Below, piece by piece: positions 4,772 to 61,317 of a DNA stretch of 64,000 bases. Source of the DNA: Ephemeroptericola cinctiostellae (lineage in GTDB: Bacteria > Pseudomonadota > Gammaproteobacteria > Burkholderiales > Burkholderiaceae); NCBI RefSeq assembly GCF_003339525.1, contig NZ_CP031124.1:1302001-1366000 (forward strand), written 5' to 3'. The notes below the pieces were generated by a model, which did not search any database, was not told where the DNA came from, and worked only from the letters and a program-made list of their open reading frames with translations. Numbering within the stretch: the stretch's first letter is position 1; each line of letters begins with the position of its first letter. The position numbers and the translations under genes were made by a program.

Positions 4772-6766
4772 ATGCACGAACCCTCTTCCAATATTCAATC
4801 GGTGTTGCAGGAAAACCGTTTATTTCCTCCTTTTGCCAACTGGTGCTCAACAGCGGCGGTTCCCAACCATGATGCATATGAAGAGCTGTGTGCTGAAGCA
4901 AATCGCGATTATGAAGGCTTTTGGGCGCGTTTGGCGCGCGAAAATTTAGATTGGTATCAGCCCTTTACGCAAACTTTGGATGAGTCTGAAGCCCCTTTTT
5001 ACAAATGGTTTGCAGATGGTAAGTTGAACGCGTCTTACAACTGCTTGGATCGTCATGTGAAAGCAGGCAATGGCAATAAAGTGGCGATTCGCTTTGAGTC
5101 CGATGCGGGTGTGGTGACGATTTTGACCTATAACGATTTGTTGCGTCGCGTTTCAAAAACAGCCAATGCGCTGAAAAGCTTGGGCATGGTGAAAGGTGAT
5201 CGTGCGATCATTTACATGCCGATGAGTATTGAAGGCATTTGCATGATGCAAGCTTGTGCACGCTTGGGTGTGATTCACAGCGTGGTGTTTGGTGGTTTCT
5301 CATCAAAAGCCTTGAATGATCGCATCGTTGACATTGGTGCAAAATTGGTGATCACGGCTGATGAGCAAACACGTGGTGGTAAAAATTTACCTTTGAAATC
5401 AACTGTTGATGAAGCGTTGACAATGGGCGGCTGCGAAGCAGTTGAGCATGTTTTGGTCAATCGCCGCACGGGTGGCTATGACAAGATGCAAGAAGGTCGT
5501 GACGTGTGGCTGGAGCCTTTGGTCGAGAAGCAATTGGCCAAATGCGAACCGACATGGGTTGAAGCCGAGCATCCGTTGTTTGTGTTGTACACATCGGGTT
5601 CTACAGGTTCTCCAAAAGGTGTGCAGCATTCTACGGGCGGCTACTTGATGTGGGCGACGCAAACCATGAAGTGGACATTCGATCTGCGTCCAAATGATGT
5701 GTTTTGGTGCACGGCCGACATTGGCTGGATCACGGGTCACACTTACATCACCTATGGACCTTTGTCTGCCGGTGCAACACAGATCGTGTTTGAAGGCATT
5801 CCGACTTATCCTGATTCAGGTCGTTTTTGGAAGATGATCGACGATCACGGTTGTACGATTTTCCACACAGCGCCGACGGCCATTCGTTCGTTGATCAAAG
5901 CTTCTGAAATGGATGATAAAGTTCATCCAAAAAATTATAACTTGTCTACCTTGCGCATCTTGGGTTCAGTGGGTGAGCCGATCAATCCAGAGGCATGGAT
6001 GTGGTATTACAAAAATGTGGGTGGCTCGCGTTGCCCGATTTTGGATACTTTCTGGCAAACTGAAACGGGTGGCAACATGATTGCCCCAATGCCTGCAGCG
6101 ATTGCTTTGACCCCTGGCTCATGCACATTGCCTTTGCCTGGGATTCAAGCGGCGATTGTCGATGAAGCGGGACATGATGTTGAAAATGGTCAGGGTGGGT
6201 TGTTGGTCATCAAGCGTCCTTGGCCTTCTATGATTCGTACCGTTTGGAATAATCCAGAGCGTTACAAATCTGGCTATTTCCCCGAAGAGTTGGGCGGTAA
6301 ATATTACCTCGCAGGTGATGGTGCGGTGCGCCACGTGGACACATCGTATTTCCAAATCATGGGCCGTATCGATGACGTTCTCAATGTTTCGGGTCACCGC
6401 CTCGGCACCATGGAAATTGAGTCGGCATGTGTGTCCCATCCATTGGTGGCTGAAGCCGCAGTGGTGGGTAAACCCGATAGCGTGACGGGCGAAGCGATTT
6501 GTGTGTTCATCGTCTTGAAGCGTGAAACACCTGTGGGCGAAGAGGCGAAACAAATCGCCAATGAAATCCGTGATTGGGTGCGTAAAGAAGTGGGGCCGAT
6601 TGCGCGTCCGAAAGAAATTCGCTTTGGTGACAATTTGCCAAAAACACGCTCGGGTAAAATCATGCGCCGCTTGTTGCGTTCTTTGGCCAAAGGTGAAGAA
6701 ATCACATCTGACATTTCAACTTTGGAAAACCCTGGCATTCTGGAGCAACTCAAACAATCGCTGTAA
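4772..6766 (+). CDS. acs: Acetyl-CoA synthetase
   Basis: A 664-residue AMP-forming acetate-CoA ligase that makes acetyl-CoA from acetate, ATP and CoA through acetyl-AMP. Motifs in order: an ACAS N-terminal domain; the P-loop [12 protein letters not shown] near residue 275; TFWQTETGG (A5 motif, acyl-pocket tryptophan); YYLAGDGA; the hinge [13 protein letters not shown]; and the C-terminal catalytic lysine in [11 protein letters not shown], the site that Pat-type enzymes acetylate in this family. AAGGAG seven bases before the ATG at 4772 fixes the start; length agrees with the family (about 650). Expressed alone, closed by a hairpin at 6819-6851. Confidence 0.97.
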
Positions 6767-6818
6767 TTGCTTTAACCGTTGTAAACATTGTAATAACGAC
6801 TGTCATTCAGGCGTATCA

Positions 6819-6851
6819 CACAAAAGCCAAGCAATCTGCTTGGCTTTTGTG
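6819..6851. terminator. Bidirectional terminator between acs and the C45-type hydrolase gene
   Basis: A 15-bp perfect stem, CACAAAAGCCAAGCA (6819-6833) with its complement at 6837-6851, and a 3-nt loop, containing the AAAAGCC/GGCTTTT core. It lies between convergent genes and can serve both. Confidence 0.8.
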
Positions 6852-6884
6852 CATGATCAACACCCCATTAATGCATCAATGACA

Positions 6885-8210
6885 TCAATGAAATACAAGG
6901 GCAATCCGTTTGGGCTTTGAGTGAAATGCTTTGGAGGCTTTGACCGATTCAACATCGATCTGCTGCGCTGGTTGTCTGGGAAGGTCATTTACTGGATTTT
7001 GTTGCCCATCTGCTTTTGTCCAAATGCGTGCAAAATCATTGGCAAATTGAATCCATTCATAGTTTTGTACTTGTAAAGCTTCGCTTAGTTGGATGGAGGC
7101 TTGCGGGTTGGGTAATAAAGCTGGGGTGATGTGCTGCAACATGTTTTCCAATATGTCACGCATCACCCCTGTCACATGATCTGCATGGGTGTCGGCATAG
7201 GTGTTTTCTGAAGTTTGTGTACTCAAAAGTGCGGGCAGCAGTTGAACGGAGATGTCGCCGTCTTTGAAATCATCGAAGCTGTGTGACCATTCCCGATCTG
7301 GCCAAACATAACGCATGCGACCCGATTGTGGTTGATAAACCGCAGTGTAAACGGTACCAAAGCTTTTGTCGTATTGTGTGCTGCGCAAGGGCGCTTGTAA
7401 AAATGCCGCAGTCATGGTTTCTGGTGTGCATGTCGGTTGTTGTAGAAATTCATCCAAGAATTGTTTGCGTTCAATCGTCTTTGAAAATTGTGCCTGTTGA
7501 GACCACACCACTTGCTGTTGATGGTTGGTGATGGTGCGTTCACGGGTCACATGAATGTTGCCCTCAATCCCAACCATGATGGTTGCGAAATCACCCGCCG
7601 CATCGATGGCGGTCACGTTATATGCCATGTGTGATGGAATGCGTTTGAGCACGGCAATCGTTTGTGGAACAGTCGTGCATGTTTGAAGGATGTAACGCAT
7701 GATCAATGGGATGCCAAAGCCATCACCCACTTGCTGACTGCCACCAAAAGTCAGGGAAAGTGCCAAACCCGTATCATTCATTCCATCGTCAGCACCCCAT
7801 AAACATTCGTTGGTGGCAATGACTTTGCGCCCAAGCCAGTTGCTGTGCGTGACGGTGTTTTCTGACAGCTCAGGGCTCAAGTCATAGTTGCGGATCAGCA
7901 TCGGTTCTTCGGTTTGCAACACGGCTTGTGAGCAATTGATCAAATACGCCGGTGGACGGTACAAGGTCAAAAATTGTGCAGCGACAGGATCGTTTCCTGT
8001 CAATCGAACCAGTTTGCGGTAGATGGGCATGAGTTCGGGCATGTGATGCTCAAGCTGTTGCTCCGCCAATGCCAATTCTTTGTGGTTGATCTGTGTTCCT
8101 TTTTTGTCGACAAACCACGAGCGGTAGGCCGGCCAAAAGGCTTGAAATAATGCCGTCCACGCATTGTCTGAGGTGCTTAAATCGATGCTGCGAAAAAGTG
8201 TCGGTTGCAT
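6885..8210 (-). CDS. C45 (acyl-CoA:6-APA acyltransferase)-like Ntn hydrolase
   Basis: A 441-residue protein resembling C45/AAT-like N-terminal-nucleophile hydrolases. The core segment YLINCSQAVL followed by EPMLIRNYDLSPEL matches the family layout, in which a Cys (the potential post-cleavage nucleophile, here in NCSQ near residue 110) precedes a conserved R-N-x-D. The later ECLWGADDGMNDTGLALSLTFGG is another typical block. Known members cleave or transfer acyl groups on amides (penicillin, peptides, acyl-CoA). AAGGA nine bases before the ATG supports the start. No neighbour indicates a substrate, so the specificity is unknown. Confidence 0.68.
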   Translation of the reverse strand: MQPTLFRSIDLSTSDNAWTALFQAFWPAYRSWFVDKKGTQINHKELALAEQQLEHHMPELMPIYRKLVRLTGNDPVAAQFLTLYRPPAYLINCSQAVLQTEEPMLIRNYDLSPELSENTVTHSNWLGRKVIATNECLWGADDGMNDTGLALSLTFGGSQQVGDGFGIPLIMRYILQTCTTVPQTIAVLKRIPSHMAYNVTAIDAAGDFATIMVGIEGNIHVTRERTITNHQQQVVWSQQAQFSKTIERKQFLDEFLQQPTCTPETMTAAFLQAPLRSTQYDKSFGTVYTAVYQPQSGRMRYVWPDREWSHSFDDFKDGDISVQLLPALLSTQTSENTYADTHADHVTGVMRDILENMLQHITPALLPNPQASIQLSEALQVQNYEWIQFANDFARIWTKADGQQNPVNDLPRQPAQQIDVESVKASKAFHSKPKRIALVFH

Positions 8211-8333
8211 GTTTAATTCCTTTAAAAAGTAAATGATGGTGATTAAAACAAATGGGGTGGGGCTATTTTTCGATTATAATAACCAAACACCATGATTCAT
8301 AATGTAGTTTAAAATTCACAGGAAGTCAACACC

Positions 8334-8666
8334 ATGATGCATGATGTTTTCGGATATGACCTCAATTTGAGCATCAAATCCACAGAAATTGCAGCTTTAT
8401 TCCAACAGTGGCGCATTCAAGACACGGCTGTTGTGTTCAGAATTGTCCGCGAGCAACAGGGCGGCGGATTTGGCGATCCAGATAAACACCCCCATGTGTG
8501 GGCCGTGGCGCTCTTTGTTGATGGCGTGGCCACGCGCGTGCACAACGCGCGCAACAGCGGGCGTGAGTGGGCGAGCTTGGATAAAGTGGAGATGTGGTTG
8601 CGCGAGCAAGGGATCAACCGCTGGCAAGTGGTGAATACTTTAGAACGTGTGAGTTTGACCCGATAA
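8334..8666 (+). CDS. Hypothetical protein, 110 aa
   Basis: A 110-residue soluble protein with no recognised domain. AGGAAG lies about ten bases before the tandem ATGs at 8334 and 8337. The sequence alternates beta- and helix-forming segments (VVFRIVREQQGGGFGDPDKHPHVWAV, then WASLDKVEMWLREQGINRWQVV), suggesting a compact alpha/beta fold. It is a single gene between the C45-like gene (divergent) and a strong inverted repeat. Codon use looks like that of its neighbours, so it is probably real. Confidence 0.6.
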   Translation: MMHDVFGYDLNLSIKSTEIAALFQQWRIQDTAVVFRIVREQQGGGFGDPDKHPHVWAVALFVDGVATRVHNARNSGREWASLDKVEMWLREQGINRWQVVNTLERVSLTR

Positions 8667-8865
8667 ATGGGGCTGGGCCGTTGTCTATTGATTAGGTTTA
8701 AAGGAACATGGACATCATGCCCAAAGATGCGATGGATCCCATACGCCACAGGCTGATTTGAGTCAACTTGGGCATGTGGAATCAGCCCACATGTTCTGAA
8801 CTGGTTGTACAGGCAGCGCCATTCTAAAATTGACCCTGACCTTATGTTTGATGATGGGATGATGG

Positions 8866-8905
8866 ATTGTAAATTTTGTCAGACTGCCCTGACAAAATTT
8901 ACAAT
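8866..8905. repeat. Perfect 17-bp inverted repeat
   Basis: ATTGTAAATTTTGTCAG (8866-8882) and its exact complement (8889-8905) flank a 6-nt loop. It lies in the 336-bp space between two convergent genes, where it may act as a terminator, although no clear T-run follows on either side. Confidence 0.6.
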
Positions 8906-9002
8906 TCAAGTCACAGAAAAGTCAAGGGTGTACTTTTGTGTGCTTTTTTAAACTTGAATGTTTGAAATGGCATTCAAGGGTGAGCGATGCATGGGTGAGC
9001 CA

Positions 9003-10361
9003 TCAATTGCTCGATGCCACCCAGCTGCTGGTGATGATTGAGTCCAACGATGAATAGCTGCTGGGTAAACTGGTCATGCCTGCTGAGGGAGTCGTAAAAC
9101 CAGCCATCGCTGTGACCAATTGGTCAACGGCATTGAAGCTCAGTGTGCTGCCATTGGTGTCGGTGATGATCACATGCTGTTCACCTAAACTAAACCAATT
9201 GGAAAAAGTCACTTGGTTGCTTGTTCCGATGTTGCTCAGCACCAAATCGTCACCGACGTGTGACAACCACAGGTGATCAGCGCTGGAAGTGAATGTGGCC
9301 ACATCAACGTTTGAAGTGCTGTTAAGTAATACGGTGTCTTGACCGAAGTCACCATAAAAACTGTAGGTGTCTTGACCCGTACCGCCATCCATCGTGTCAT
9401 TGCCTGTCAGACCAACGATGGAGTCGTTGCCACTGCCTGCAAACACAAAGTCATTGCCTGTGCCCGATTCAAAAGTGTCATTGCCATCCGCACCGACCAT
9501 GCTGTCATCGCCATCAAAGGCATTGAAAAAATTGTTCCCCGCCTCTCCATACAATGTGTCGTTGCCCGCACCACCACACAGCGTGTCGTCACCTGTGCCG
9601 CCGTACTCAAGGTCGTCGCCTGTGCTGCCGCGCATGGTGTCATTGCCTGTGCCACCGTAGATGGTGTCGTTGCCCAGTCCCGCTTCAAGAGAATCGTTGC
9701 CGTCATTGCCCATGAGCATGTCGTGACCATCGTCGCCTTTTAATGAATCATTGCCTGTACCACCCACCATGCTGTCGTTGCCATAACCGCCATGAGCGAC
9801 ATCATCGCCATCGCCTGCAAGGATGGTGTCGTTGCCAAGGCCGCCGAGAATATGGTCATTGCCTGCGCCAGAATTGATGTGATCATTGCCAGCACCCCCA
9901 TCGAAACTGTCGTTGCCGCTCGCACCCAACATGCTGTCATCGCCCTCAGCGCCATTGAAACTGTTGTTGCCGCTGCCACCAATCAACGTGTCATCACCAG
10001 CCCCGCCCGAAAGAAGGTCTGTACCTTCGCCGCTGTCAATGAGGTCATTGCCATCACCGCCCCGCAGTGTGTCATTGCCCGAATTGCCATATAAAGTGTC
10101 TTGACCTAAGCCACCTTCCAGTACATCGTTGCCATCACCGCCATACAAAATGTCATGCCCTGCATCTCCTTTGAGTGAATCGGCACCTGAGCTGCCATAG
10201 ATGATGTCATTGCCATCGTTGCCATTGACTTCATCATTGCCCGCGAGGGCATAAATGGTGTCATTGCCTTGTCCGCCCAAAATGATGTTGTTGGCCGCAT
10301 TGGCTGTGATGTTGTCATGACCTGAACCGCCGTAAAAATTATTTCCTGATTGCATTGTCAT
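9003..10361 (-). CDS. RTX (hemolysin-type Ca2+-binding repeat) protein
   Basis: A 452-residue acidic protein built almost entirely of glycine-rich nonapeptide repeats (GGxGxDxLx type, for example GGDGNDVLEGGLGQDTLYG) from about residue 10 to 330, which fold into a Ca2+-binding beta-roll. The C-terminus (ADHLWLSHVGDDLVLSNIGTSNQVTFSNWF) matches the haemolysin-type calcium-binding related domain that often follows RTX repeats. No signal peptide is present, as expected for type I secretion, but no ABC/MFP/TolC genes are in the window. The ATG at 10361 was chosen because AAAGGA precedes it at good spacing; the reading to 10415 adds 18 residues. No enzymatic domain is seen, so it could be a surface or matrix protein. 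Confidence 0.85.
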   Translation of the reverse strand: MTMQSGNNFYGGSGHDNITANAANNIILGGQGNDTIYALAGNDEVNGNDGNDIIYGSSGADSLKGDAGHDILYGGDGNDVLEGGLGQDTLYGNSGNDTLRGGDGNDLIDSGEGTDLLSGGAGDDTLIGGSGNNSFNGAEGDDSMLGASGNDSFDGGAGNDHINSGAGNDHILGGLGNDTILAGDGDDVAHGGYGNDSMVGGTGNDSLKGDDGHDMLMGNDGNDSLEAGLGNDTIYGGTGNDTMRGSTGDDLEYGGTGDDTLCGGAGNDTLYGEAGNNFFNAFDGDDSMVGADGNDTFESGTGNDFVFAGSGNDSIVGLTGNDTMDGGTGQDTYSFYGDFGQDTVLLNSTSNVDVATFTSSADHLWLSHVGDDLVLSNIGTSNQVTFSNWFSLGEQHVIITDTNGSTLSFNAVDQLVTAMAGFTTPSAGMTSLPSSYSSLDSIITSSWVASSN

Positions 10362-10415
10362 ATGTATCATTCCTTTTTTAAGTTCTATTCCAGTTTCATG
10401 CATTGCTGACGCCAT

Positions 10416-10620
10416 CCTGTGTTTTGGTCAGCTGCTTTTGATGTTGCATTCTTTGTTTTAAAAAGTTGCAACCCAGTGAAAATAACTGTAAATCATGTGG
10501 ATTCAATGTGGATATTTATAAGAGAGTACTGAATTTAGAGTAATTATTAGGTTGTAAATTATTAATAAAATTCAATTTTTGCGTTAAAAACACCACTGTG
10601 TCAGTGAATGACATAAAAAA
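10416..10620. other. Region upstream of the RTX gene
   Basis: Very AT-rich DNA without an open gene. It should contain the promoter of the RTX gene (minus strand), but no convincing -35/-10 pair was singled out. Confidence 0.4.
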
Positions 10621-10640
10621 TGCGTGGCATCAGCCACGCA
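10615..10640 (-). terminator. Rho-independent terminator of prpF
   Basis: An 8-bp stem TGCGTGGC/GCCACGCA with an ATCA loop (10621-10640), followed on the minus strand by six Ts (10620-10615). It lies about 240 bp beyond the prpF stop codon. Confidence 0.7.
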
Positions 10641-10881
10641 TTGTGTTTTTCATGTCACATGAAATAAAACATTAACTGCTATTTAATTTTATTTATTTTT
10701 GGTTTTTTATTTTGTTTTGCAAAATGGAAGTGTCATTGATTGTGCTTATTTTCTGCACCCACACGTTTCAGCGTGGGGCACTGCAACACCAATGAAGTGA
10801 AGTGGTCACATTTCAAATTTCAAATGCTTCATCTGCCGCAAAGCATGGGCTTTTTTTTGAATGGCCATACACATCAACGGC

Positions 10882-12063
10882 TCATTGTGGAACGTGCACC
10901 CAGCCTGCCATCAACACGCGCGCACTGCGACTCATGATGGCTTTTGTCACTGACCATTCACCATTGACCAAAGCCGCTTCTGCGCCGACGCGCAATGTGC
11001 CCGATGGGTGACCAAAGCGCACCACGGTGCGCTCACCACCGCCCGCTGCGAGATTGACCAGTGTGCCAGGAATCGCTGCCGCAGTGCCAATCGCTACGGC
11101 GGCCGTGCCCATCATCGCATGATGCAATTTACCCATCGACAATGCGCGCACGAGCAGATCAATGTCTGCCGTGGTCACTGCTTTACCACTTGACGACACA
11201 TAGTCTTTTGCAGGAGCGACGAAAGCCACTTTCGGCGTGTGCGCACGCTTGGCGGCTTCATCGATGTGGGCAATTAAACCCATGCGCACCGCACCATGCG
11301 CGCGAATGCTTTCAAACATCGCCAAAGCTTTGGCATCCGCATTGATTGCATCTTGCAGCTCTGTGCCCGTGTAACCAAGTGCGCTGGCTTCAACAAAAAT
11401 CGTTGGGATGCCCGCATTAATCATCGTTGCTTTGAGCACCCCCACATGGGGCACATCCAATTCATCGATCAAATGACCCGTGGGAAACATTGAACCGCCC
11501 GCGCCATCTTCATCGGCAGCAGGTGCCATGAATTCCAGGGCAATTTCAGCCGCTGGAAACGTCACACCGTCCAATTCAAAATCACCTGTTTCTTGGACTT
11601 CACCATGGGTAATGGGCACATGAGCGATGATCGTTTTGCCAATATTGGCTTGCCAAATGCGCACGATGGCGACACCATTGTGCGGGATGCGACTCGCATC
11701 AACCAGTCCGCCGCTGATCGCGAAAGGCCCCACAGCCGACGATAGATTGCCGCAGTTGCCGCTCCAATCCATGAATGCATTTTCAATCGACACCTGTCCA
11801 AACAAATAATCCACATCGTGATCTGGCCGTGTGCTTTTGGACACAATCACTGTTTTGCTGGTGCTCGATGTTGCACCGCCCATGCCATCAATTTGTTTTG
11901 CGTATGGATCAGGTGAGCCGATCACGCGCATGAGCAGCGCATCACGCGCCGCACCCGCGACTTGAGCCGCCTCGGGCAAATCATTCAAGCGGAAAAATAC
12001 ACCTTTGCTGGTGCCTCCGCGCATGTAAGTGGCGGGAACTTTGATTTGAGGTAAATGTGTCAT
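10882..12063 (-). CDS. prpF: PrpF family isomerase (2-methylaconitate cis-trans isomerase type)
   Basis: A 393-residue member of the PrpF family (diaminopimelate-epimerase fold). The N-terminus PATYMRGGTSKGVFFRLNDLPEA, then QIDGMGGATSSTSKTVIV and DWSGNCGNLSSAVGPFAI, are the family signatures; the cysteine in GNCGN lies in the active site. PrpF partners AcnD in the 2-methylcitrate cycle of propionate breakdown; related proteins (GalD) isomerise 4-oxalomesaconate. The ATG at 12063 with AAAGG upstream was preferred to a longer reading. prpB, prpC and acnD are absent from the window, so assignment to propionate use rests on similarity alone. Confidence 0.85.
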   Translation of the reverse strand: MTHLPQIKVPATYMRGGTSKGVFFRLNDLPEAAQVAGAARDALLMRVIGSPDPYAKQIDGMGGATSSTSKTVIVSKSTRPDHDVDYLFGQVSIENAFMDWSGNCGNLSSAVGPFAISGGLVDASRIPHNGVAIVRIWQANIGKTIIAHVPITHGEVQETGDFELDGVTFPAAEIALEFMAPAADEDGAGGSMFPTGHLIDELDVPHVGVLKATMINAGIPTIFVEASALGYTGTELQDAINADAKALAMFESIRAHGAVRMGLIAHIDEAAKRAHTPKVAFVAPAKDYVSSSGKAVTTADIDLLVRALSMGKLHHAMMGTAAVAIGTAAAIPGTLVNLAAGGGERTVVRFGHPSGTLRVGAEAALVNGEWSVTKAIMSRSARVLMAGWVHVPQ

Positions 12064-37539: not shown

Positions 37540-37667
37540 TGTGTGCTCCAAAAATAAAAGGGGGGCAGCAGGCGTAGACGGTCAAGTAACGATGACCTGA
37601 GGTACGCTCGCCTTTAAGTTTAGTTCCCCGAGGTGTTAAAAGTGTTTAACGGGTGTTTAACATTAAA

Positions 37668-37772
37668 GCGAGCGCCGTTGAATGCCTCTAAAAATAAACT
37701 TTAAGGGCCACATTTGCCAAGCCTAGCGGTGTTGGGTTTAACGGGTCAACACACGTCGCAGCGCTCCTTGGC
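37668..37772 (-). promoter_or_regulatory. SAH riboswitch
   Basis: On the minus strand: GCCAAGGAGCGCTGCGACG (37772 down to 37754), then AGGCTTGGCAAATG (about 37727-37714), then CAACGGCGCTCGC (37680-37668). These match the SAH-aptamer consensus order CCGAGGAGCGCUGCAACG ... CAGGCUCGG ... AACGGCGCUC. GCCAAG/CTTGGC forms P1 and GAGCGC/GCGCTC the long-range helix. The class switches on ahcY when SAH accumulates. Downstream GGCGAGCG (37612-37605) can pair with CGCTCGC of the aptamer, offering an expression platform. Confidence 0.9.
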
Positions 37773-37932
37773 AAAACGGTTCGAAATTGTAGCATAATTC
37801 TTGGGTTTGTAACAGTGCTGCGCTACAATGGCAGGATTACACGGCGTATGGGTTTGTACCGACATGCGTGCTTGTTTTTGATTCGTTTTAATTTATTTAA
37901 GTTTTATTTAAGTTTGCTGTCTTGTTTATGGA

Positions 37933-49073: not shown

Positions 49074-51882
49074 GTTCCAGCCAGTACCCATATCCCAATC
49101 GGTTATAATCCAAAATAGATCAAGAAAAGCAAGCACGCAGTTCCAGCCAGTACCCATATCCCAATCGGTTATAATAAAACAAACAACTCACTTTAACGCT
49201 TAAAAGTTCCAGCCAGTACCCATATCCCAATCGGTTATAATGCGCTGGCTGCAATGGCTTGCGCGAACATGGGTTCCAGCCAGTACCCATATCCCAATCG
49301 GTTATAATCTGTGCGGGCATGCCAGCATCAAAACCACAGTTCCAGCCAGTACCCATATCCCAATCGGTTATAATATCAAAGACGTGCCCGAACTGAACCG
49401 GATGGTTCCAGCCAGTACCCATATCCCAATCGGTTATAATACCGTTGTGCAAAATCAATGAGGGTCGTACGTTCCAGCCAGTACCCATATCCCAATCGGT
49501 TATAATTTTTCGCCCGTGCGGCAATCGCCAAACTCAGTTCCAGCCAGTACCCATATCCCAATCGGTTATAATGAGGTTTATCAAGCCACGCGGCACGGTA
49601 CCGTTCCAGCCAGTACCCATATCCCAATCGGTTATAATATTGCCGAAAAGTTCCGACTCACCTGCCGAGTTCCAGCCAGTACCCATATCCCAATCGGTTA
49701 TAATATTGCTGGGTGTATCGCTCAACCAGCTCTGGTTCCAGCCAGTACCCATATCCCAATCGGTTATAATATGCGCTCTCGTCGAAAATTGAGCGTTTAA
49801 GTTCCAGCCAGTACCCATATCCCAATCGGTTATAATACGATAAGCCTACAGCAGATAGCCCAATAAGTTCCAGCCAGTACCCATATCCCAATCGGTTATA
49901 ATTGGCGGGGTTGATGGCAATGGCAATTACTTGTTCCAGCCAGTACCCATATCCCAATCGGTTATAATATACTCATTGAAATGGGTATCACTCCGACAGT
50001 TCCAGCCAGTACCCATATCCCAATCGGTTATAATTTGCTCTGTAACAACTGGGAAGCCTTCGGTGTTCCAGCCAGTACCCATATCCCAATCGGTTATAAT
50101 CAGTAATCTTCACGCGCCCCCATAGAACGAGTTCCAGCCAGTACCCATATCCCAATCGGTTATAATCCATTATTATCTAGATGTACAGTCGATTTAGTTC
50201 CAGCCAGTACCCATATCCCAATCGGTTATAATACAGTGGCTGATAAATATATGACTGTTTTTGTTCCAGCCAGTACCCATATCCCAATCGGTTATAATAT
50301 GGCATTGAGAATGCCCGCATCGCGCTTGGTTCCAGCCAGTACCCATATCCCAATCGGTTATAATGCCTCAACGGTACGCACTCCGCTGCCGATTGTTCCA
50401 GCCAGTACCCATATCCCAATCGGTTATAATTGTAATCATTTTCAACTGTGCGCCAATCATGTTCCAGCCAGTACCCATATCCCAATCGGTTATAATGCGA
50501 TTCAGTTTGTCGGTTTGGCCAATCATGTTCCAGCCAGTACCCATATCCCAATCGGTTATAATCAGCACCATTGCGCTGCGCTTCGTCGGTCAGTTCCAGC
50601 CAGTACCCATATCCCAATCGGTTATAATTGATTGGTGGTGGTTAATTTGTTCGTTTAAGTTCCAGCCAGTACCCATATCCCAATCGGTTATAATTTGGCG
50701 TGATCACTGCGCCCGCACGCCAGGGTTCCAGCCAGTACCCATATCCCAATCGGTTATAATGCAAGTCGCCGCGATGATGCGCCTCTAAATGTTCCAGCCA
50801 GTACCCATATCCCAATCGGTTATAATAAACTAGCTGCTGTTGTTAAGCTAATTAAAGTTCCAGCCAGTACCCATATCCCAATCGGTTATAATAGACTGCA
50901 GCACCGCCTGCCCGTTGCTTTTGTTCCAGCCAGTACCCATATCCCAATCGGTTATAATAAAACATGGAATCCTCCAACTGTCGGCGAAGTTCCAGCCAGT
51001 ACCCATATCCCAATCGGTTATAATTAAAACTCAGTCCTTGAATAAGGCGTCATGGTTCCAGCCAGTACCCATATCCCAATCGGTTATAATAGATCAATTT
51101 TTTGGGTATCGGCACCTCCAGTTCCAGCCAGTACCCATATCCCAATCGGTTATAATGACTGTGGGTGCAGCCGCGCCGGTGCATGAGTTCCAGCCAGTAC
51201 CCATATCCCAATCGGTTATAATTGATGACCTGCCCGTCTTGCGCTTGATACGGTTCCAGCCAGTACCCATATCCCAATCGGTTATAATGGAATGCTGTTT
51301 GACCGAGAGGCTGAATTTGTTCCAGCCAGTACCCATATCCCAATCGGTTATAATTATTACCGGCACAAGGACACCAAAAACAATGTTCCAGCCAGTACCC
51401 ATATCCCAATCGGTTATAATCAAACCAAAACACACAACGCATGACCGCACGTTCCAGCCAGTACCCATATCCCAATCGGTTATAATAAAACCAACGGTGA
51501 CATGTTTAGCAACTTAGTTCCAGCCAGTACCCATATCCCAATCGGTTATAATAGTCAGCGGGTGGTAAAGCTCCGCTGCGCAGTTCCAGCCAGTACCCAT
51601 ATCCCAATCGGTTATAATTTTAACTGTCTTGTCCACATTGTCAGCGCAGTTCCAGCCAGTACCCATATCCCAATCGGTTATAATATACCTCCACGTTCTT
51701 CCCCAGTATACCGAGTTCCAGCCAGTACCCATATCCCAATCGGTTATAATGGCCCTCGTCGCTACAGGCCTCGTTATCTAGTTCCAGCCAGTACCCATAT
51801 CCCAATCGGTTATAATTCAATTGATGGTATTAAAGTTTGCCTTCAAGTTCCAGCCAGTACCCATATCCCAATCGGTTATAAT
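49074..51882 (+). CRISPR. Type II-C CRISPR array, 43 repeats and 42 spacers
   Basis: A 36-bp repeat (begins GTTCCAGCCAGTACCC, ends CAATCGGTTATAAT) recurs 43 times with apparently identical sequence at a 66-bp period. Spacers are 30 bp, except the third (49242-49272), which is 31. The repeat 3' end TATAAT is a -10 hexamer, as in the Neisseria type II-C repeats that drive each crRNA from within the array; this sets the transcribed strand as +. The last repeat is as intact as the first. The array converges with cas2, separated by a terminator. The many unrelated spacers and lack of repeat decay suggest an active system. Confidence 0.98.
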
Positions 51883-51951: not shown

Positions 51952-52278
51952 TTAGAATAAATCATATTGGTCAGGTGGTTTTTGCGCGGCTTGTTTGGCT
52001 GCGCCTTTGTAGGAAATAATGCGCTCGTATTGTTTGTCGGTAAATTGCAATATACTGACTTTACCACCTTCGGGCAAGAATTTTTCGATGCGGTTGCAAT
52101 AATTTTCAACCTGAGCAGGGCCGCTGCAAAATCGTACATACACCGAAAACTGGCTCATTTCAAAACCCATATCGAGTAGGTCATTGCGAAAAGCCGTGGC
52201 TGCTTTGCGCTCGGCGCGTTCGATGACGGGGAGGTCAAACATGACGACTAACCACATGAGTCTGTATCCTGATAACAT
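51952..52278 (-). CDS. cas2: CRISPR-associated endonuclease Cas2
   Basis: A 108-residue ferredoxin-fold protein of the adaptation complex. The N-terminal strand YRLMWLVVMFDLPVIERAERKAATAFRNDLLDMGFEMSQFSVYVRFC has the conserved MFDLP Asp. Length fits type II Cas2. GGAGG before the ATG; 12 bp after cas1. Acts with Cas1 as the spacer integrase. Confidence 0.96.
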   Translation of the reverse strand: MLSGYRLMWLVVMFDLPVIERAERKAATAFRNDLLDMGFEMSQFSVYVRFCSGPAQVENYCNRIEKFLPEGGKVSILQFTDKQYERIISYKGAAKQAAQKPPDQYDLF

Positions 52279-52290
52279 AATGCCTCCATG

Positions 52291-53220
52291 CTATTCATCC
52301 AAAAAACTGCTCGCCAAATCCAATGGCAAGCCTTGTAATGGTAAGTCGAGTTTGTCGCGCTCGCCCAAATACACTTGTGCCAAAGAGGTGGCGAGTTTTT
52401 GAATACACGCCATCACGGGGGTTGCGCCGACGTTGGTTTGCATGTCGTCATACAAAACGTGTACCAAGGCGCGTTTGCTACTGGGGGTGACATCGGTTTC
52501 ACCGTGTTGCACCAATTGCCAAACTTTGAGGTCAATCATGGGGCGAAACGGTTCCATGAGGTCATCGACCAAGCGCATGGCGTTGTTGGCATTGCTGTGA
52601 AACAGGCTGATGGTGGGATGCAGTCCAGCGGCAATCACCGCGCGAGCAGTGCAGGCACGCACCACGGTGTAGCCGTAGTTGAGCAGGGCGTTCATGTCGC
52701 CGCTGTTTTGGTCGCGGCGAAAATCATTGCCAAACAACATTGTCCAGTATTTGCGTGCACCTTGGGCTTCAAGGTTGTCGGGGTCGCCTGATTTGACTTT
52801 TTGTGCGAGTGCGTTGAGTGGTGTGGCGTTTTGCCCGACGGCTTCAAGCACGGCGGCTTGTTGTTGTAGTTTGCTTTTGACGATTTCTGCCCACAGGCGT
52901 TTATGCGTCGGTTTGGTCGCAGCGATTTGCGCGTCAAACCGTTTGGCTTGGTTGTAATTGCCGTCCACGGTGATGAGCATGCCTGCCGCATTATGATTCG
53001 CGCCGCACATCACAAACGGCGTACCGCGCTCGGCGAGCGCGACGAGCAGGCTGTTGGTATAACTGATGCCGTGCGCATTGGCGATGACGGCAGCAATATC
53101 GTCAATTGGTACTTGCCCCAACTCCTTGCGCTCGCCGTCAGATGCCTGCACCACCATAAAGCCGCGATGTAAAAACAGATGACGCTTATCGTCGGCGATT
53201 TCTACAATGCGGCCTATCAT
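52291..53220 (-). CDS. cas1: CRISPR-associated endonuclease Cas1
   Basis: A 309-residue type II Cas1 integrase. The N-terminal beta domain (GRIVEIADDKRHLFLHRGFMVVQ, VPIDDIAAVIANAHGISYTNSLLVALAERGTP) and the helical catalytic domain (LNYGYTVVRACTARAVIAAGLHPTISLFHSNANNAMRLVDDLMEPFRPMID) contain the expected Glu, His and Asp metal ligands, the His in LFHSN and the Asp in LVDDLMEPFRP. AAGGAG precedes the ATG, which lies three bases after the cas9 stop. No csn2 or cas4 follows, defining subtype II-C. Confidence 0.97.
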   Translation of the reverse strand: MIGRIVEIADDKRHLFLHRGFMVVQASDGERKELGQVPIDDIAAVIANAHGISYTNSLLVALAERGTPFVMCGANHNAAGMLITVDGNYNQAKRFDAQIAATKPTHKRLWAEIVKSKLQQQAAVLEAVGQNATPLNALAQKVKSGDPDNLEAQGARKYWTMLFGNDFRRDQNSGDMNALLNYGYTVVRACTARAVIAAGLHPTISLFHSNANNAMRLVDDLMEPFRPMIDLKVWQLVQHGETDVTPSSKRALVHVLYDDMQTNVGATPVMACIQKLATSLAQVYLGERDKLDLPLQGLPLDLASSFLDE

Positions 53221-53223
53221 GGC

Positions 53224-56200
53224 TTACTCCTTAAAACCTTGGTCAGTTATCTCTCCGATGGGGGAGATGGTGACGCGGCGGGCTTTGGTGTTTTGTAAAG
53301 AGCCAGCATATTTTGAAATGTATGAAAATAACTCTCCTTTATTTGAGTTTCGCTCATTTACATTGGCTTCATTATGTTCGGCAAAAAACATTTGACCATT
53401 CGCCCCCATTTTAACCACGCGCATCAAACACAAGCGCTCGCCCACCATCATTTTGACAATATCACCATTTTGTAAACGCATCACTAATGGCTTGCCCGAA
53501 ATGCTGGTGCTGCGTGAGCGCAACATTGCCAAACCTTTGTCACGTCCATATTCTCGCACGATTTGATAGGCTTGATAAGTAGATACAATCTCGCCCTCCC
53601 ATTTGCCTTTGTCATTGCAGACAATATCCATACAAAAATTACTGCCGCCCACATAGCCTTTATAGGATTTGACTTGACCACTTTCATCCAAACCGTGGCG
53701 GTTAGGGTCTCGTGTGCTGTTGAACGGAATCACGCTGCGGTTTTTGTATTCACGCTCGCGTCGTCCCGTTTCATCATTACGCACGCGTCGCGTGGTCACA
53801 CCATCGGGGCGCAAGCCCCATGCGGTGTCTTCGTGCATTTGCCCCTCGTAACTGTGGTCGGGGCGGTGGCTGACGTAAATATGCGCAACCGCACGTTTGA
53901 CATGCTCGCGATAAGTCGGCCAAGGGTCGGGCATTTTTTCAACTAGTCTATCTAACTGCAAAGCATTGGCGGATTGGCTGGCGTTGGCGAATCGTTGCAG
54001 TAGACCTTGGTCGGTCACGCCAATCACGCAGGCATCGACGGCGTGGTGGCGGTGGTCGTTGCGGTTTTTTAAGCCATCTAATCCCAAAACTTTATTCAAG
54101 CCAAATTGAGCGCGTAACTTTGCCGTCATTTGCCCTGGAATGACACGGGTGTTTTGGGGACAGACTAATGCCAAGTATTCTTTCGCAATGCGCGACAAAT
54201 AACGCGTGTCGTTCAAAGCGCGTGCCAAAAAATCTTTGTCGTCTTTGAGCCATTTCTCGTAGCCATCGGGCGCAAAACGGTAGCGTTTGCCTTTGGGCAT
54301 CCGCTCGGCGCGTTGTAAAATTTCTTCGTATTTAAAATCAGCAACTTGCTTAACACCAAAGGCTTCCCACGGCGTTTGATTGCCCTTAATACGGTTAGCA
54401 ACACGCATAGACATGGTCTTATTGTTCAAACTATCGTCCAAAGTTCGCGCATACGGCAAAATGTGCTCGATTTCCACGCCGCTGCTATCCGACAACACCA
54501 TTTCGGCACTGATTTGTACACCTGTGTAGGGGCAACGTCTATCCACCACATCAAAACTCAACTCTTCCCATAAAATCCATTTTTGAATGTCGGCGTGCTT
54601 CACGCGCTCTTCATTGCCACCGAATTTAGCATTGGCAATGTCGCGGCGAATGCGCTCGTTGCGCTTTTGGTTTGCTGCTTGACGTTTTTGTTCTTCCTCG
54701 CGTTGGATTTTGCTTTGTTTCAAATCACGCGCAACCTCAACAATGATTTCAGATGGGTGTCCATATTTTTTAATCAGCGCATTCACCACCGTGCGGATTT
54801 GATTCAAGCCAATGTGCACGGTCGGATTGGCGATTTTGCCATAGCGTTTTTCAGGTACATCCGCTGGGTTATTGGTACCAAAACCGACAAAACGTTGCAA
54901 CGGCTCGCCATAATAAGGCAACTCGGGCAAAATCTCACCCGTCACTTTAGAAGGGTTTAAATGACTGTGGTGGTCAAACCCAGCGGCTTTCACGGCTTTG
55001 TCGTAGGTCACCACATCTTTACGCAATTCGGGTAATAATCGCACAATCGCCGCTGCACTCAAACTGCCATAACCTTCGGGCAAACCTACATTGGCAATAC
55101 GCTCGGCAGTTGCTTCATCCACGCCTGTGTGTTTAATCAACCAACGCACCAGTTTGGCTTCGTTTTCTTCTTTGACCAACTGCATAACGATTTCGTCTTG
55201 GAAACTTTCGGTGAGGTTGAGCCATGCCTTGCCAAAGTACTTGTCATTGCTCAAAATCGCACTGGTGGTGTTGCCTTTAAAGTCTTGGCGTTTTACATCC
55301 TCAAAGTTAAACTGCACCGCGCCACCCAAACCGAGTAATTTCTTGATTTGGGTAAAACTGCGTTTGCTGTTGGCTTCTAAAGCCACAATCAATGAGTCGC
55401 GTTGCGCCACAGTTAAAACCTGCTCTTTCAAGCCTTCAGCCAAAATCCGCAAATGATTCACTTCTTGATACATCCGCGCCCGTTGTACACTTGGCAAAGC
55501 CAATGGCGCACGTTCTTCATCGGGCAATAAAGTACAACGCCCTGGAATCACGGGTTTTAGATTACGTTGAAACAACAACACATCTTTTAAATCAGTACGG
55601 GCTGATTCGGTGAATTGGGCAGAGTTCAATTGCGCTTGCTTCGCCCACAGCGCATCAAACTCATCTTCAATCATTTGGCGGTCAATGTATAAATCGTAAC
55701 TTTTATCAATCCGTTTTTTACCGTCGATTTCAATCGGTTTTTGGCGAAAACGTGCACGTACCGTGCGCTCTTCGGGTGTTAAGGTTTCATCTGTAAATCG
55801 TTTGTGCAAAAACTCGCCCACTGTACGGCAATTGGTTTGTAGCAATGTTTGGCGCAGTGCACTAATGGCGGTTTTGAGTGCGCCGCTGTCATTGTCGGCT
55901 TTATCGGTTTTGCGATTGCTTTTAAAACCACGGCGTTGATTGATGTGAAACAAAGCACGCGCAAACTCGGCAGGCGTCAGGGCATCGTCCAAACCTTTGG
56001 CGCGTAGTTCGTATGGATTGAGATTTTCCAAGGCTTTGCGCTCGGCGGCATCTTTGGGGAAAAAACCATACTCAATCAAGGTTTTCATCATCCGCGCTTT
56101 GCGTTTGAGCAAACGGTCGCGGCGGCGACGCATGCCGCGTGCCTCACGGCGATTTACCGCAAGCGACGCTTCGGTTTTGGCATCGCGGCCGTTATTAAAA

Positions 56201-56325
56201 ATCCGCACGCCTGCTTTGATAATGGCGGAGGGGCGCGGCGGTGTCTCGTTATTCAGGCGTAGAATCGCCCAGCCGATGGACGTGGTGCCGAGGTCTAATG
56301 CGAGACGATAAGACAGTTTAAACAT
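53224..56325 (-). CDS. cas9: CRISPR-associated endonuclease Cas9 (type II-C)
   Basis: A 1033-residue compact Cas9. RuvC-I LALDLGTTSIGWAIL (Asp11); arginine-rich bridge helix at about 58-80; REC lobe to about 480; RuvC-II SEIIVEVARDL; HNH with EIEHILP (His621) and SLNNK; RuvC-III NDHRHHAVDACVIG (His and Asp near residues 761-764). A C-terminal PAM-interacting region of about 200 residues follows. All catalytic residues are intact. GGGAG precedes the ATG. It is the second gene of the operon, 17 bp after a 64-codon ORF. Size and gene set (cas9-cas1-cas2) place it in II-C; the PAM cannot be read from this sequence. Confidence 0.98.
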   Translation of the reverse strand: MFKLSYRLALDLGTTSIGWAILRLNNETPPRPSAIIKAGVRIFNNGRDAKTEASLAVNRREARGMRRRRDRLLKRKARMMKTLIEYGFFPKDAAERKALENLNPYELRAKGLDDALTPAEFARALFHINQRRGFKSNRKTDKADNDSGALKTAISALRQTLLQTNCRTVGEFLHKRFTDETLTPEERTVRARFRQKPIEIDGKKRIDKSYDLYIDRQMIEDEFDALWAKQAQLNSAQFTESARTDLKDVLLFQRNLKPVIPGRCTLLPDEERAPLALPSVQRARMYQEVNHLRILAEGLKEQVLTVAQRDSLIVALEANSKRSFTQIKKLLGLGGAVQFNFEDVKRQDFKGNTTSAILSNDKYFGKAWLNLTESFQDEIVMQLVKEENEAKLVRWLIKHTGVDEATAERIANVGLPEGYGSLSAAAIVRLLPELRKDVVTYDKAVKAAGFDHHSHLNPSKVTGEILPELPYYGEPLQRFVGFGTNNPADVPEKRYGKIANPTVHIGLNQIRTVVNALIKKYGHPSEIIVEVARDLKQSKIQREEEQKRQAANQKRNERIRRDIANAKFGGNEERVKHADIQKWILWEELSFDVVDRRCPYTGVQISAEMVLSDSSGVEIEHILPYARTLDDSLNNKTMSMRVANRIKGNQTPWEAFGVKQVADFKYEEILQRAERMPKGKRYRFAPDGYEKWLKDDKDFLARALNDTRYLSRIAKEYLALVCPQNTRVIPGQMTAKLRAQFGLNKVLGLDGLKNRNDHRHHAVDACVIGVTDQGLLQRFANASQSANALQLDRLVEKMPDPWPTYREHVKRAVAHIYVSHRPDHSYEGQMHEDTAWGLRPDGVTTRRVRNDETGRREREYKNRSVIPFNSTRDPNRHGLDESGQVKSYKGYVGGSNFCMDIVCNDKGKWEGEIVSTYQAYQIVREYGRDKGLAMLRSRSTSISGKPLVMRLQNGDIVKMMVGERLCLMRVVKMGANGQMFFAEHNEANVNERNSNKGELFSYISKYAGSLQNTKARRVTISPIGEITDQGFKE

Positions 56326-56342: not shown

Positions 56343-56537
56343 TTATAATAAGCAGCGGTCTAAAAAAATATGTAGTGCATCTTTATCAATTGGGGTTTGA
56401 GCTAAAAAATATTCTATCGCCTCGTTTGTTTTCTTGATGGTATTTGAATCGACTGGAATGTTACGACTTTGCAGGTATTGACCAATAATATAAGGTCGTT
56501 CATATGTGAGGGTCAAGGTGACTTTGTTAGGTATCAT
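56343..56537 (-). CDS. Small ORF heading the cas operon, unknown function
   Basis: A 64-residue protein, predicted mostly helical after an N-terminal strand (NKVTLTLTY), with helices around IIGQYLQSRNI and TIKKTNEAIEYFLAQT and a C-terminal DALHIFLDRCLL. GGAG eight bases before the ATG is as good as that of cas9. It ends 17 bp before cas9, and the predicted cas promoter lies upstream of it, so it is the first translated gene of the operon. No known Cas or anti-CRISPR family is recognised. It might be a regulator, an accessory factor or a translated leader. Confidence 0.65.
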   Translation of the reverse strand: MIPNKVTLTLTYERPYIIGQYLQSRNIPVDSNTIKKTNEAIEYFLAQTPIDKDALHIFLDRCLL

Positions 56538-56697: not shown

Positions 56698-56726
56698 ATA
56701 ATACGTTTAATTTCGTATAAAGTCAA
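56698..56726 (-). promoter_or_regulatory. Predicted cas operon promoter
   Basis: On the minus strand, TTGACT (56726-56721), a 17-bp spacer, and TATTAT (56703-56698). The expected start is near 56691, giving a leader of about 150 nt before the small ORF. Confidence 0.7.
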
Positions 56727-56749
56727 GTTGTAATTTTATAGCACTATTC

Positions 56750-56759
56750 GATGACTTAA
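56750..56759 (+). other. Protospacer-like site upstream of the cas promoter
   Basis: GATGACTTAA, identical to the 10 nt directly 5' of the degenerate repeat at 56829. It lies about 24-33 bp upstream of the predicted -35 of the cas promoter and is followed by TGAAATTT on the PAM side. Confidence 0.5.
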
Positions 56760-56872
56760 TGAAATTTATTTAAGTTATTGCCTTTAACAATTTTATAAAA
56801 GTTAATTGTATTAGAAGTGATGACTTAAGTTCCAACCAGTACACATATCCGAATAAGTTAATTACTACAGAA

Positions 56873-56902
56873 TTGACATAACTAACTTTCTTCGTGTATT
56901 CT
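56873..56902 (+). promoter_or_regulatory. Predicted promoter of the short tracrRNA
   Basis: TTGACA (56873-56878), an 18-bp spacer, TATTCT (56897-56902). The start is expected near 56909, a few bases before the anti-repeat. The promoter lies in the loop of the long palindrome. Confidence 0.7.
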
Positions 56903-56908
56903 GTAGTT

Positions 56909-56996
56909 ACTAACAGATTGGGGTATGTGTACTGGAGGCTAACAAGCTGAAAGATGCACCAAATGAAAAGCCACGCATGCGTGGCTTTTGTCTTTT
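56909..56996 (+). ncRNA. tracrRNA of the type II-C system
   Basis: The anti-repeat GATTGGGGTATGTGTACTGG (56916-56935) complements the repeat segment CCAGTACCCATATCCCAATC with one mismatch and one G-U pair. It is followed by AGGCTAACAAGCTGAAAGATG and a 12-bp intrinsic terminator AAAAGCCACGCA/TGCGTGGCTTTT (56967-56990). It points away from cas9, divergent from the operon. Needed for crRNA maturation and Cas9 loading. Confidence 0.88.
56967..56990 (+). terminator. tracrRNA terminator
   Basis: A fully symmetric AAAAGCCACGCA/TGCGTGGCTTTT palindrome followed by TGTCTTTT; forms the 3' hairpin of the tracrRNA. Confidence 0.85.
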
Positions 56997-60743: not shown

Positions 60744-61317
60744 GTCCGCGCCCCTAAAGTAACGATGGTGAATGATTTATCTTTACCAAAAGGGGGCACA
60801 AATAGAGACGCTTCGCACGCAATGGCTTGCGCGAAAAAACGACAGGATGTGCATGCCTTTGGTACGAAGGCCTGCACACGATGATCATTGATAGGTATCT
60901 GACTTGGGGGAACTGATCGAGTCTAATCGAGAGGTCAATCCTCGATGCTCAAAAGAACAGCGATCCCTTACAGTTGCGCCACAGTCCATGAGTTCCACAT
61001 GGTTCCCTGTATGCAATGCTTGTGTATTAACTATTTGATTTTTAAATAATATTTGCAAATAATTTTTAAAAACCATAACGCAGCAAGGCGAGTCAATGAT
61101 GAAAGTGTGATGGGGTGCATCATAACAAAAAAACGCATACTCTGCCGTTGGAAATTTGTCATTTTTCGTTAAGTTTTTGCTTGCTTTTTATGCGTTAAGT
61201 TACGTCATCAACTGTGTAAGTTGGGTGTGAAGTGCAACATAAGTGCTTGTTTTAAAAACAGCAAAACCAATGCTTGTGATTTATTTAAATATGCCTTTGT
61301 GTTTGTTTTTTGGCTTT
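60744..61317. other. Upstream region of nrdB
   Basis: About 570 bp without a gene. It holds the nrdB promoter region. No clear NrdR-box pair was recognised. The segment 60819-60835 is identical over 17 nt to CRISPR spacer 3 and lies in a small imperfect hairpin (TTCGCACGCAA...TTGCGCGAA). Confidence 0.45.

Follow-up and report, generated by a model that had tools for sequence, protein, structure and literature searches.

The last quarter of a 64,000-nt stretch of the Ephemeroptericola cinctiostellae genome (contig NZ_CP031124.1, positions 1,302,001 to 1,366,000; hereafter the window) holds a cas9-cas1-cas2 locus with an array of clustered regularly interspaced short palindromic repeats (CRISPR). 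The locus appears to code for a natural single-guide RNA (sgRNA) of its own, with a 10-nt guide that matches DNA just upstream of cas9. The best explanation of its sequence, and one that we hold to be very probable, is that Cas9 carrying this natural single guide binds the cas leader without cutting it and represses the cas genes. Such control would resemble that by tracr-L, the long trans-activating CRISPR RNA (tracrRNA) of Streptococcus pyogenes, in a system of II-C type.

A putative single-guide RNA and its match beside cas9

From position 56819 onward the forward strand reads guide, degenerate repeat, loop, anti-repeat, tracrRNA core and terminator, and this order folds as one single-guide RNA. 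The guide segment, GATGACTTAA (56819-56828), would be the seed that lies next to the protospacer adjacent motif (PAM). An exact second copy stands at 56750-56759 on the same strand, upstream of the predicted cas promoter, as an earlier note on this DNA had reported. The guide is followed directly by a degenerate CRISPR repeat (56829-56864, +; GTTCCAACCAGTACACATATCCGAATAAGTTAATTA) in the orientation of a CRISPR RNA (crRNA), spacer first and then GTTCC, which bears out the note's placement of it where the seed of a crRNA would be. Compared with the repeat of the array (GTTCCAGCCAGTACCCATATCCCAATCGGTTATAAT, 43 copies), this crRNA-like half keeps seven of the first eight bases, has one mismatch in the first 12 and differs at 9 of 36 positions. 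It takes part in an inverted repeat whose 38-nt arms (56836-56873 and 56898-56935) are 84% complementary. The second arm is the anti-repeat (56898-56935, +), which is extended past the repeat and makes 15 consecutive pairs with the degenerate repeat; with the array repeat there is one internal mismatch. Next come the conserved tracrRNA core GCTAACAAGCTG (56938-56949, +), found within two mismatches upstream of cas9 in relatives, and, from a terminator scan, an intrinsic terminator stem-loop (56966-56989, +) followed by a T-rich stretch. The fold of the whole segment, 56819-56996, has a predicted energy of -64 kcal/mol (z -6.7), and none of 200 shuffles was as stable.

The window holds only these two copies of GATGACTTAA, with 0.11 expected, and at least two copies arose in 1 of 100 dinucleotide shuffles of the window. 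The whole 2.72-Mb genome has five. The copy in the cas leader is the putative target, made up of a protospacer seed (56750-56759) and the PAM-like flank TGAAATTT (56760-56767), together 56750-56767 (+), and was recognised by its identity with the guide and by comparison of flanks. Alone among the five genome copies it has an N4-R-T-W flank; the three remaining copies are flanked by CTGAACTC, ATGATTAT and TCGCAGGA, none of which has RTW.

The same layout with other guides in related loci

A profile scan of genome contigs with three aligned Cas9s gave 104 loci, of which the best 80 were kept. In most of these the tracrRNA is short and divergent from cas9, and nothing like a repeat precedes it. 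A unit was called where at least seven of the first eight bases of the locus's own repeat were present upstream of the core; for L072, whose array is off the contig, the L066-type repeat was used. This cut was chosen after 13 looser hits had been inspected. By this standard a repeat-like 5′ half precedes the core in eight units: the window, L050, L061, L066, L067, L068, L072 and L082. The Cas9s of the related loci whose units we compared are 59-67% identical to that of the window.

In seven of the eight units, the 9 to 11 bases directly before the repeat are copied exactly within 200 nt, and the copied sequences differ by locus. The match measures 10 nt in the window, 11 in L050, 10 in L061, 9 in L066, 11 in L067, 9 in L068 and 9 in L082, and 11 in L144, a further unit described below. 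At L077 it measures 13 nt, so that lengths run from 9 to 13 nt throughout; this locus was excluded from the unit count because it had been found via the duplication itself. Its contig holds 520 nt upstream of cas9, and, as in L069 and L088, where the contig likewise ends within 520 nt, this upstream part showed no core.

The guides are locus-specific except in two pairs: L067 and L072 have the same guide, and those of L066 and L068 are one base apart. In the latter, orthologous pair, guide and target carry the identical substitution. The earlier note had named co-variation of the two 10-mers in relatives as a check, and the comparison turned out positive, with differing guides that each have their own nearby copy, at one register relative to the repeat and beside the same PAM-like flank. 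Since the guides vary between loci under an unchanged layout and PAM, it must be the match of guide and target as such that is selected. The interpretation put forward in the note is well supported by this comparison, at the level of sequence.

One rival reading is that of a relic. The degenerate repeat might be a decayed repeat left over from an origin of the tracrRNA in array repeats, with the 10-mer matching by chance. Such an origin, through duplication and relocation of a repeat, has been proposed (PMC8730458; here and below, cited statements reflect the available part of each article). Chance copies do occur: over 186,257 leader positions, 3.2% have a right-anchored 9-nt copy 25-600 nt away and 0.09% have one with an N4RTW flank, both rates being slightly high because the null includes the true units. 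Against chance stands a match in 8 of 9 units (the seven of eight plus L144), for which the binomial probability is 1e-11 with the PAM unused. It is 3e-10 without the window (7/8) and 8e-9 when L068, kin of L066, is also left out (6/7). The stems speak on both sides, as in four of eight units the anti-repeat has a weaker partner in the degenerate repeat than in the array repeat, whereas in the window, L066 and L068 the degenerate repeat is the better partner, and the window stem continues past the repeat. Of all the explanations weighed here we find the relic the least credible, with a very slight chance of being right.

A pattern-only search, with guides unseen, was run for GTTCCGGC, a gap and GCTAACAAGC in 399 genomes of one family. 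It matched two known units and one new one, L144, in which an 11-nt copy lies 58 nt away with the flank AGGGATAT, about 260-280 nt upstream of the start of a Cas9 match 67% identical to the window Cas9. A similar pattern, in another search of 399 genomes, occurred at five other places, with no tracrRNA tail and no match of at least 8 nt in 3 kb. A looser repeat pattern gave 13 units, seven with a match of at least 9 nt and six without (L016, L038, L039, L045, L104 and L072). The first five of these six, among which the L104 unit is the same as the L039 unit, share at most six of the first eight bases of the array repeat and were treated as chance pattern hits, by a post-hoc cut. Two further approaches were dropped. 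An in-region null (2 to 16 of 314 positions, seven matching units) was inflated by copies of the terminator, repeat and anti-repeat, and a permissive scan for any 9-nt duplication before GTT or TTT with a stem was swamped by chance matches.

Flanks of the targets

All nine target flanks, those of L077 and L144 included, fit NGNNRTW: TGAAATTT, TGCGATTG, GGGTGTAA, GGAGATTA, GGGAATTT, AGAAATTT (twice), AGGGATAT and GGAGATAG. These PAM-like flanks are in line with the PAMs of spacers, which come from an independent source. One spacer of L052, whose Cas9 is 63% identical overall to that of the window, matches a Variovorax phage with one mismatch and the flank ACCCATTT (N4ATTT); it comes from the best of five phage records for that array, the one examined. 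For L059, 94 phage records matched and 11 stretches, picked for distinct spacers, were examined. Nine distinct spacers match phage stretches with 0-2 mismatches, and an Erwinia phage stretch from the same search had no spacer within six mismatches. The nine flanks are CCGAGTAG, AGATACTA, TGGGGCAG, CGAAGCCA, TGGTGCAA, CGGTGTAC, GCGAGCAG, AAAAGTAA and AGGAGTAA, with N4GYA in seven of nine. The window flank TGAAATTT agrees with the N4ATTT of the one L052 spacer and with the flanks of eight other loci, all of which belong to other Cas9s and not to the window's own. The comparison is suggestive of PAM specificity at positions 5-7, where L061, with GTA, would belong with the L059 type and the remaining loci, with ATT or ATA, with the L052 type; in the C-terminal 195 residues, L061 is 49% identical to L059 and 49% to the window.

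Other protospacer searches can be told briefly. The arrays of L040, L074 and L050 had no phage match, and in plasmids L040 matched only another array. The L076 array had four matching records in the PAM search. An L017 spacer match with four mismatches (TTCTATCA) was read as chance, and a search of 299 genomes with the L052 array gave four places that were all rejected, as they straddle repeat and spacer by array spacing. A scan of viral contigs for Cas9 gave only a 24% identical protein. As a separate observation, position 2 of the flank is G in 9 of 9 targets; among spacer flanks it is G in 6 of 9 from L059 and in 0 of 1 from L052.

The flanks also bear on a different account of the duplication, in which a transcription factor that serves both divergent promoters, of cas and of the tracrRNA, binds the pair of 10-mers as a direct repeat, and only coincidence places the pair near the degenerate repeat. 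Both copies do lie in the divergent promoter region, and direct-repeat operators are common. Yet the repeated sequence differs between loci and in every case runs up to the start of the CRISPR repeat, L067 and L077 have the copy in inverted orientation, and the far copy carries NGNNRTW in nine of nine cases. We judge an operator of this kind to be very unlikely.

Promoters, target position and proposed mechanism

All promoters discussed here, in the window and in relatives, are consensus matches. The candidate main cas promoter is TTGACT-17-TATTAT (56698-56726, -), and the cas-ward promoter predicted in the earlier note is upheld. The TATAAA at 56740-56735, noted earlier as a possible upstream promoter, is readable as part of an extended -10 candidate, TTCATT-17-TATAAA (56735-56763, -), whose -35 and spacer are spanned by the target. 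The note had cautioned that occlusion of the cas promoter was not obvious from the position of the site. This caveat is eased by the extended -10 candidate under the site and by the PAM-distal side, which faces the cas promoters; the gap to the best -35 stays. The PAM-distal side points toward cas9 in the window, L050, L061, L082 and L144, and it is over that side that the footprint of Cas9s in general extends. The site lies about 9 nt (L061) and about 12 nt (L082) upstream of the best cas-ward -35 candidate; in L050 a weak -10 candidate precedes it by about 9 nt. L067 and L077 have the site inverted, no more than 50 nt from cas9.

A functional RNA might act on RNA and not on DNA, as do Campylobacter Cas9 or the small CRISPR-associated RNA (scaRNA) of Neisseria. 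Type II-C Cas9s can bind RNA, and the II-C scaRNA of Neisseria acts on the efeO mRNA (PMC13431127). The guides of L067 and L077, in contrast, run in the same sense as the cas9 mRNA and are unable to base-pair with it, which favours DNA binding. The PAM-like flanks at the targets imply recognition of DNA, and the window target is upstream of both predicted cas start sites. Action on RNA is, in our view, improbable.

For the repression of the cas leader by Cas9, which we prefer, we infer three things: transcription of a long form, binding without cutting, and repression. The tracrRNA gene would give a long form that begins at or before the 10-nt guide and runs through the degenerate repeat, paired with its own anti-repeat, to make a ready-made single-guide RNA. 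A candidate promoter with a predicted start at about 56819 is TTAACA-17-TGTATT (56784-56812, +). Loaded in the host Cas9, the single-guide RNA would lead to binding at 56750-56759 next to the TGAAATTT PAM; binding without cutting is proposed because only about 10 PAM-proximal bases match. Bound Cas9 would block the extended -10 promoter under the site, the contacts of RNA polymerase at the main cas promoter, or both, and the outcome would be negative feedback on cas9-cas1-cas2. Immunity would be served by a shorter tracrRNA from a candidate internal promoter in the loop, TTGACA-18-TATTCT (56873-56902, +), which has 10 of 12 matches and was listed by the standard scan. The scan gave four promoter-like sites for the region, where shuffles gave 2.9, and the sites that it lists are for this reason weak evidence.

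Points against repression by Cas9

Several results weigh against this mechanism. The distance from the window target to the -35 of the best cas promoter candidate, downstream of it, is 24 nt. The earlier note had proposed a promoter that would start the RNA at the 10-mer; the sequence is there, but it is a weak match (9 of 12) and is absent from the standard scan. L072 carries the L067 guide, and a single base of its target, 3 nt from the PAM, fails to match. In L050, L061, L067 and L082 the array repeat is a better partner for the anti-repeat than the degenerate repeat is, and in L072 the two are equal, so that among the eight units the anti-repeat prefers the degenerate repeat only in the window, L066 and L068, by a margin of 1 kcal/mol in the window. 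With regard to the PAM, N4RTW is found in only 4 of 9 L059 flanks, and the window's own array spacers gave no usable protospacer, either in plasmids or in phages, where one 25-nt match had E 3. The C-terminal region of the window Cas9 is 50% identical to that of L052 and 49% to that of L059. Given these identities and the lack of a usable protospacer, the borrowed PAMs are suggestive at most.

The distribution of the unit belongs with these points. It is complete in 7 of the 80 kept loci and partial in L077, and most relatives are without it. No closer relative of the window system was found, and none of five other species of its genus matched, so the comparison is one between distant loci apart from L066 and L068. 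On a quick tree of 79 Cas9s, with nine unit rows (L077 in, L144 out), the unit label is scattered: it takes eight changes for nine rows, against a mean of 8.7 when shuffled, and 129 of 500 shuffles had as few. All nine unit rows fall outside one 47-row group of the tree. The single-guide device looks to have been gained or lost often.

Stand-alone guides in Acidovorax

L066 and L068, two Acidovorax loci, have a normal short tracrRNA beside cas9 and a second core about 1 kb further up, with 33-34 nt from the start of the repeat to the core. Pairing of their unit with the array repeat is poor (-19.1 and -16.9 kcal/mol, where other units have -26 to -41). Each guide, TGCGGAGGT in L066 and TGCGAAGGT in L068, matches a site 45 nt away that has changed in the same way. 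The gene that reads away from this site is an open reading frame (ORF) with an NYN domain (L066 6041-6802, L068 6027-6788), which lies between the stand-alone sgRNA and tracrRNA/cas9. It matches Pfam with E 4e-7 in L066 and PADLOC HEC-09 with E 2e-29 (L066) and 1e-29 (L068); the L068 ORF had no NCBIfam match. A weaker NYN relative (36% over 108 aa) was seen upstream of cas9 in L069.

The best promoter candidate of the NYN gene in L068 is TTCGCA-16-TATAAA. The site overlaps its -35 and also the -35-like hexamer of the sgRNA's own promoter candidate, TTTGCG-16-TATAAT. Because it overlaps both, self-repression of the L068 sgRNA is equally possible. The L066 promoter match is weaker than that of L068. 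In these two loci the guide, separate from the tracrRNA, may be aimed at the NYN nuclease gene.

A wider proposal can be built on this, in which natural single guides are a recurring, retargeted control of II-C Cas9 and the Acidovorax one is a dedicated sgRNA that acts as a guard, as in CrePA. Freed of tracrRNA duty, the sgRNA would send Cas9 to the promoter of the NYN nuclease (HEC-09) next to cas9, and a phage inhibitor that disabled Cas9 would release the nuclease. This is a tentative idea and rather unlikely to be right as it stands. The stand-alone guides would be naturally minimal sgRNAs for compact Cas9s, and they bear on a question put in a 2025 review, namely if there are CrePA-like systems that use other CRISPR types and other toxins (PMC12737573).

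The cas locus and its surroundings

Type II-C systems are defined by cas9, cas1 and cas2 without an adjoining csn2 or cas4. NCBIfam models identified in the window cas9 (53224-56325, -; 1033 aa; TIGR01865, E 1e-188), cas1 (52291-53220, -; TIGR03639, E 2e-74) and cas2 (51952-52278, -; TIGR01573, E 4e-17), and the five neighbouring ORFs that were checked for cas genes are all other genes. The array (49074-51882, crRNA sense +) has 43 repeats of 36 nt. A 64-codon ORF (56346-56537, -), with a plausible ribosome site by eye, lies between the cas promoter and cas9. It had no Pfam or PADLOC family and no relative among the loci examined, and its single PHROG match has E 0.079. Between cas9 and the sgRNA of L067, L072 and L077 we saw by eye short ORFs that start M(x)KRRV, on the tracrRNA strand; used as a query, the one of L072 found no other match among the loci examined.

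A second type II locus in the same genome (L126, C1:1406000-1422000, about 6146-11875) has consecutive ORFs of 145, 813 and 243 codons, the 813-codon one matching Cas9, and then cas1, cas2 and a repeat array; its cas9 appears split by frame changes. Elsewhere in the window are a cobalamin riboswitch (60877-61047, -; 31.7 bits, cut-off 31.5), upstream of genes for the beta and alpha subunits of ribonucleotide reductase, and an S-adenosylhomocysteine (SAH) riboswitch (37663-37775, -).

Comparison with known systems

In the open-access literature that was searched, with subscription journals mostly outside it, no II-C single guide aimed at its own cas promoter is described. The available text of a study that modelled II-C tracrRNA makes no mention of single guides (PMC9067536). 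tracr-L has been described in Streptococcus (PMC8730458) and is stated, in the part available of another article, not to be found outside II-A (PMC8616872). If our explanation is true, self-repression of Cas9 by a natural single guide extends past II-A to II-C-type systems, in beta- and gammaproteobacteria (the latter through L082). The presence of the same layout with different guides in other bacteria suggests that such self-control is not limited to the subtype of first description, and for each new locus the sequence itself predicts the target.

CreR is a crRNA-like RNA without a tracrRNA part. The window unit includes a tracrRNA core and terminator, so its RNA, unlike CreR, would be a single guide including the tracrRNA. 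CreR turns the effector on its own cas promoter, and CrePA on a toxin gene; CreR is placed in types I and V-A (PMC12737573).

Two scaRNAs belong to type II systems. That of the Neisseria meningitidis II-C system is a separate RNA with an sgRNA-like structure that is reported to regulate efeO post-transcriptionally, and one section of the article is headed 'Absence of evidence for sequence-guided protein expression regulation by scaRNA' (PMC13431127). It is similar in form to the stand-alone units of L066 and L068. In Francisella novicida (II-B), scaRNA guides Cas9 to chromosomal DNA in a PAM-dependent way, acting together with a tracrRNA to repress four other genes as a regulon (PMC13431127). 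Like it, the proposed window RNA would be a small CRISPR-associated RNA that guides Cas9 to chromosomal DNA. Unlike scaRNA of the Francisella type, which is separate from the tracrRNA and regulates non-cas genes, the window unit has its repeat and tracrRNA contiguous, and the only RTW-flanked copy of its guide among the five in the genome is in the cas leader.

The parallel drawn at the outset is with tracr-L of the S. pyogenes II-A system, in which a long tracrRNA acts as a single guide with a 9- or 11-nt guide (reviews differ) to the cas promoter beside a PAM, and a second promoter yields the short tracrRNA (PMC11417352, PMC8730458, PMC8616872). S. mutans has a divergent tracr-L and target (PMC11417352). 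Several features mark an RNA of this type, and the window unit has them: a repeat-like segment 5′ of, and predicted to pair with, a same-strand anti-repeat, contiguous with the tracrRNA, and directly 5′ of the repeat an exact 10-nt guide (about 9-11 nt being typical) that matches the cas promoter region. As in S. pyogenes, a long tracrRNA would serve as a single guide with a short guide to the cas promoter and a second promoter for the short form, and the binding proposed is non-cleaving. The window differs in having cas9-cas1-cas2 of II-C type, a tracrRNA divergent from cas9, a putative N4-type PAM, and an unrelated guide and repeat.
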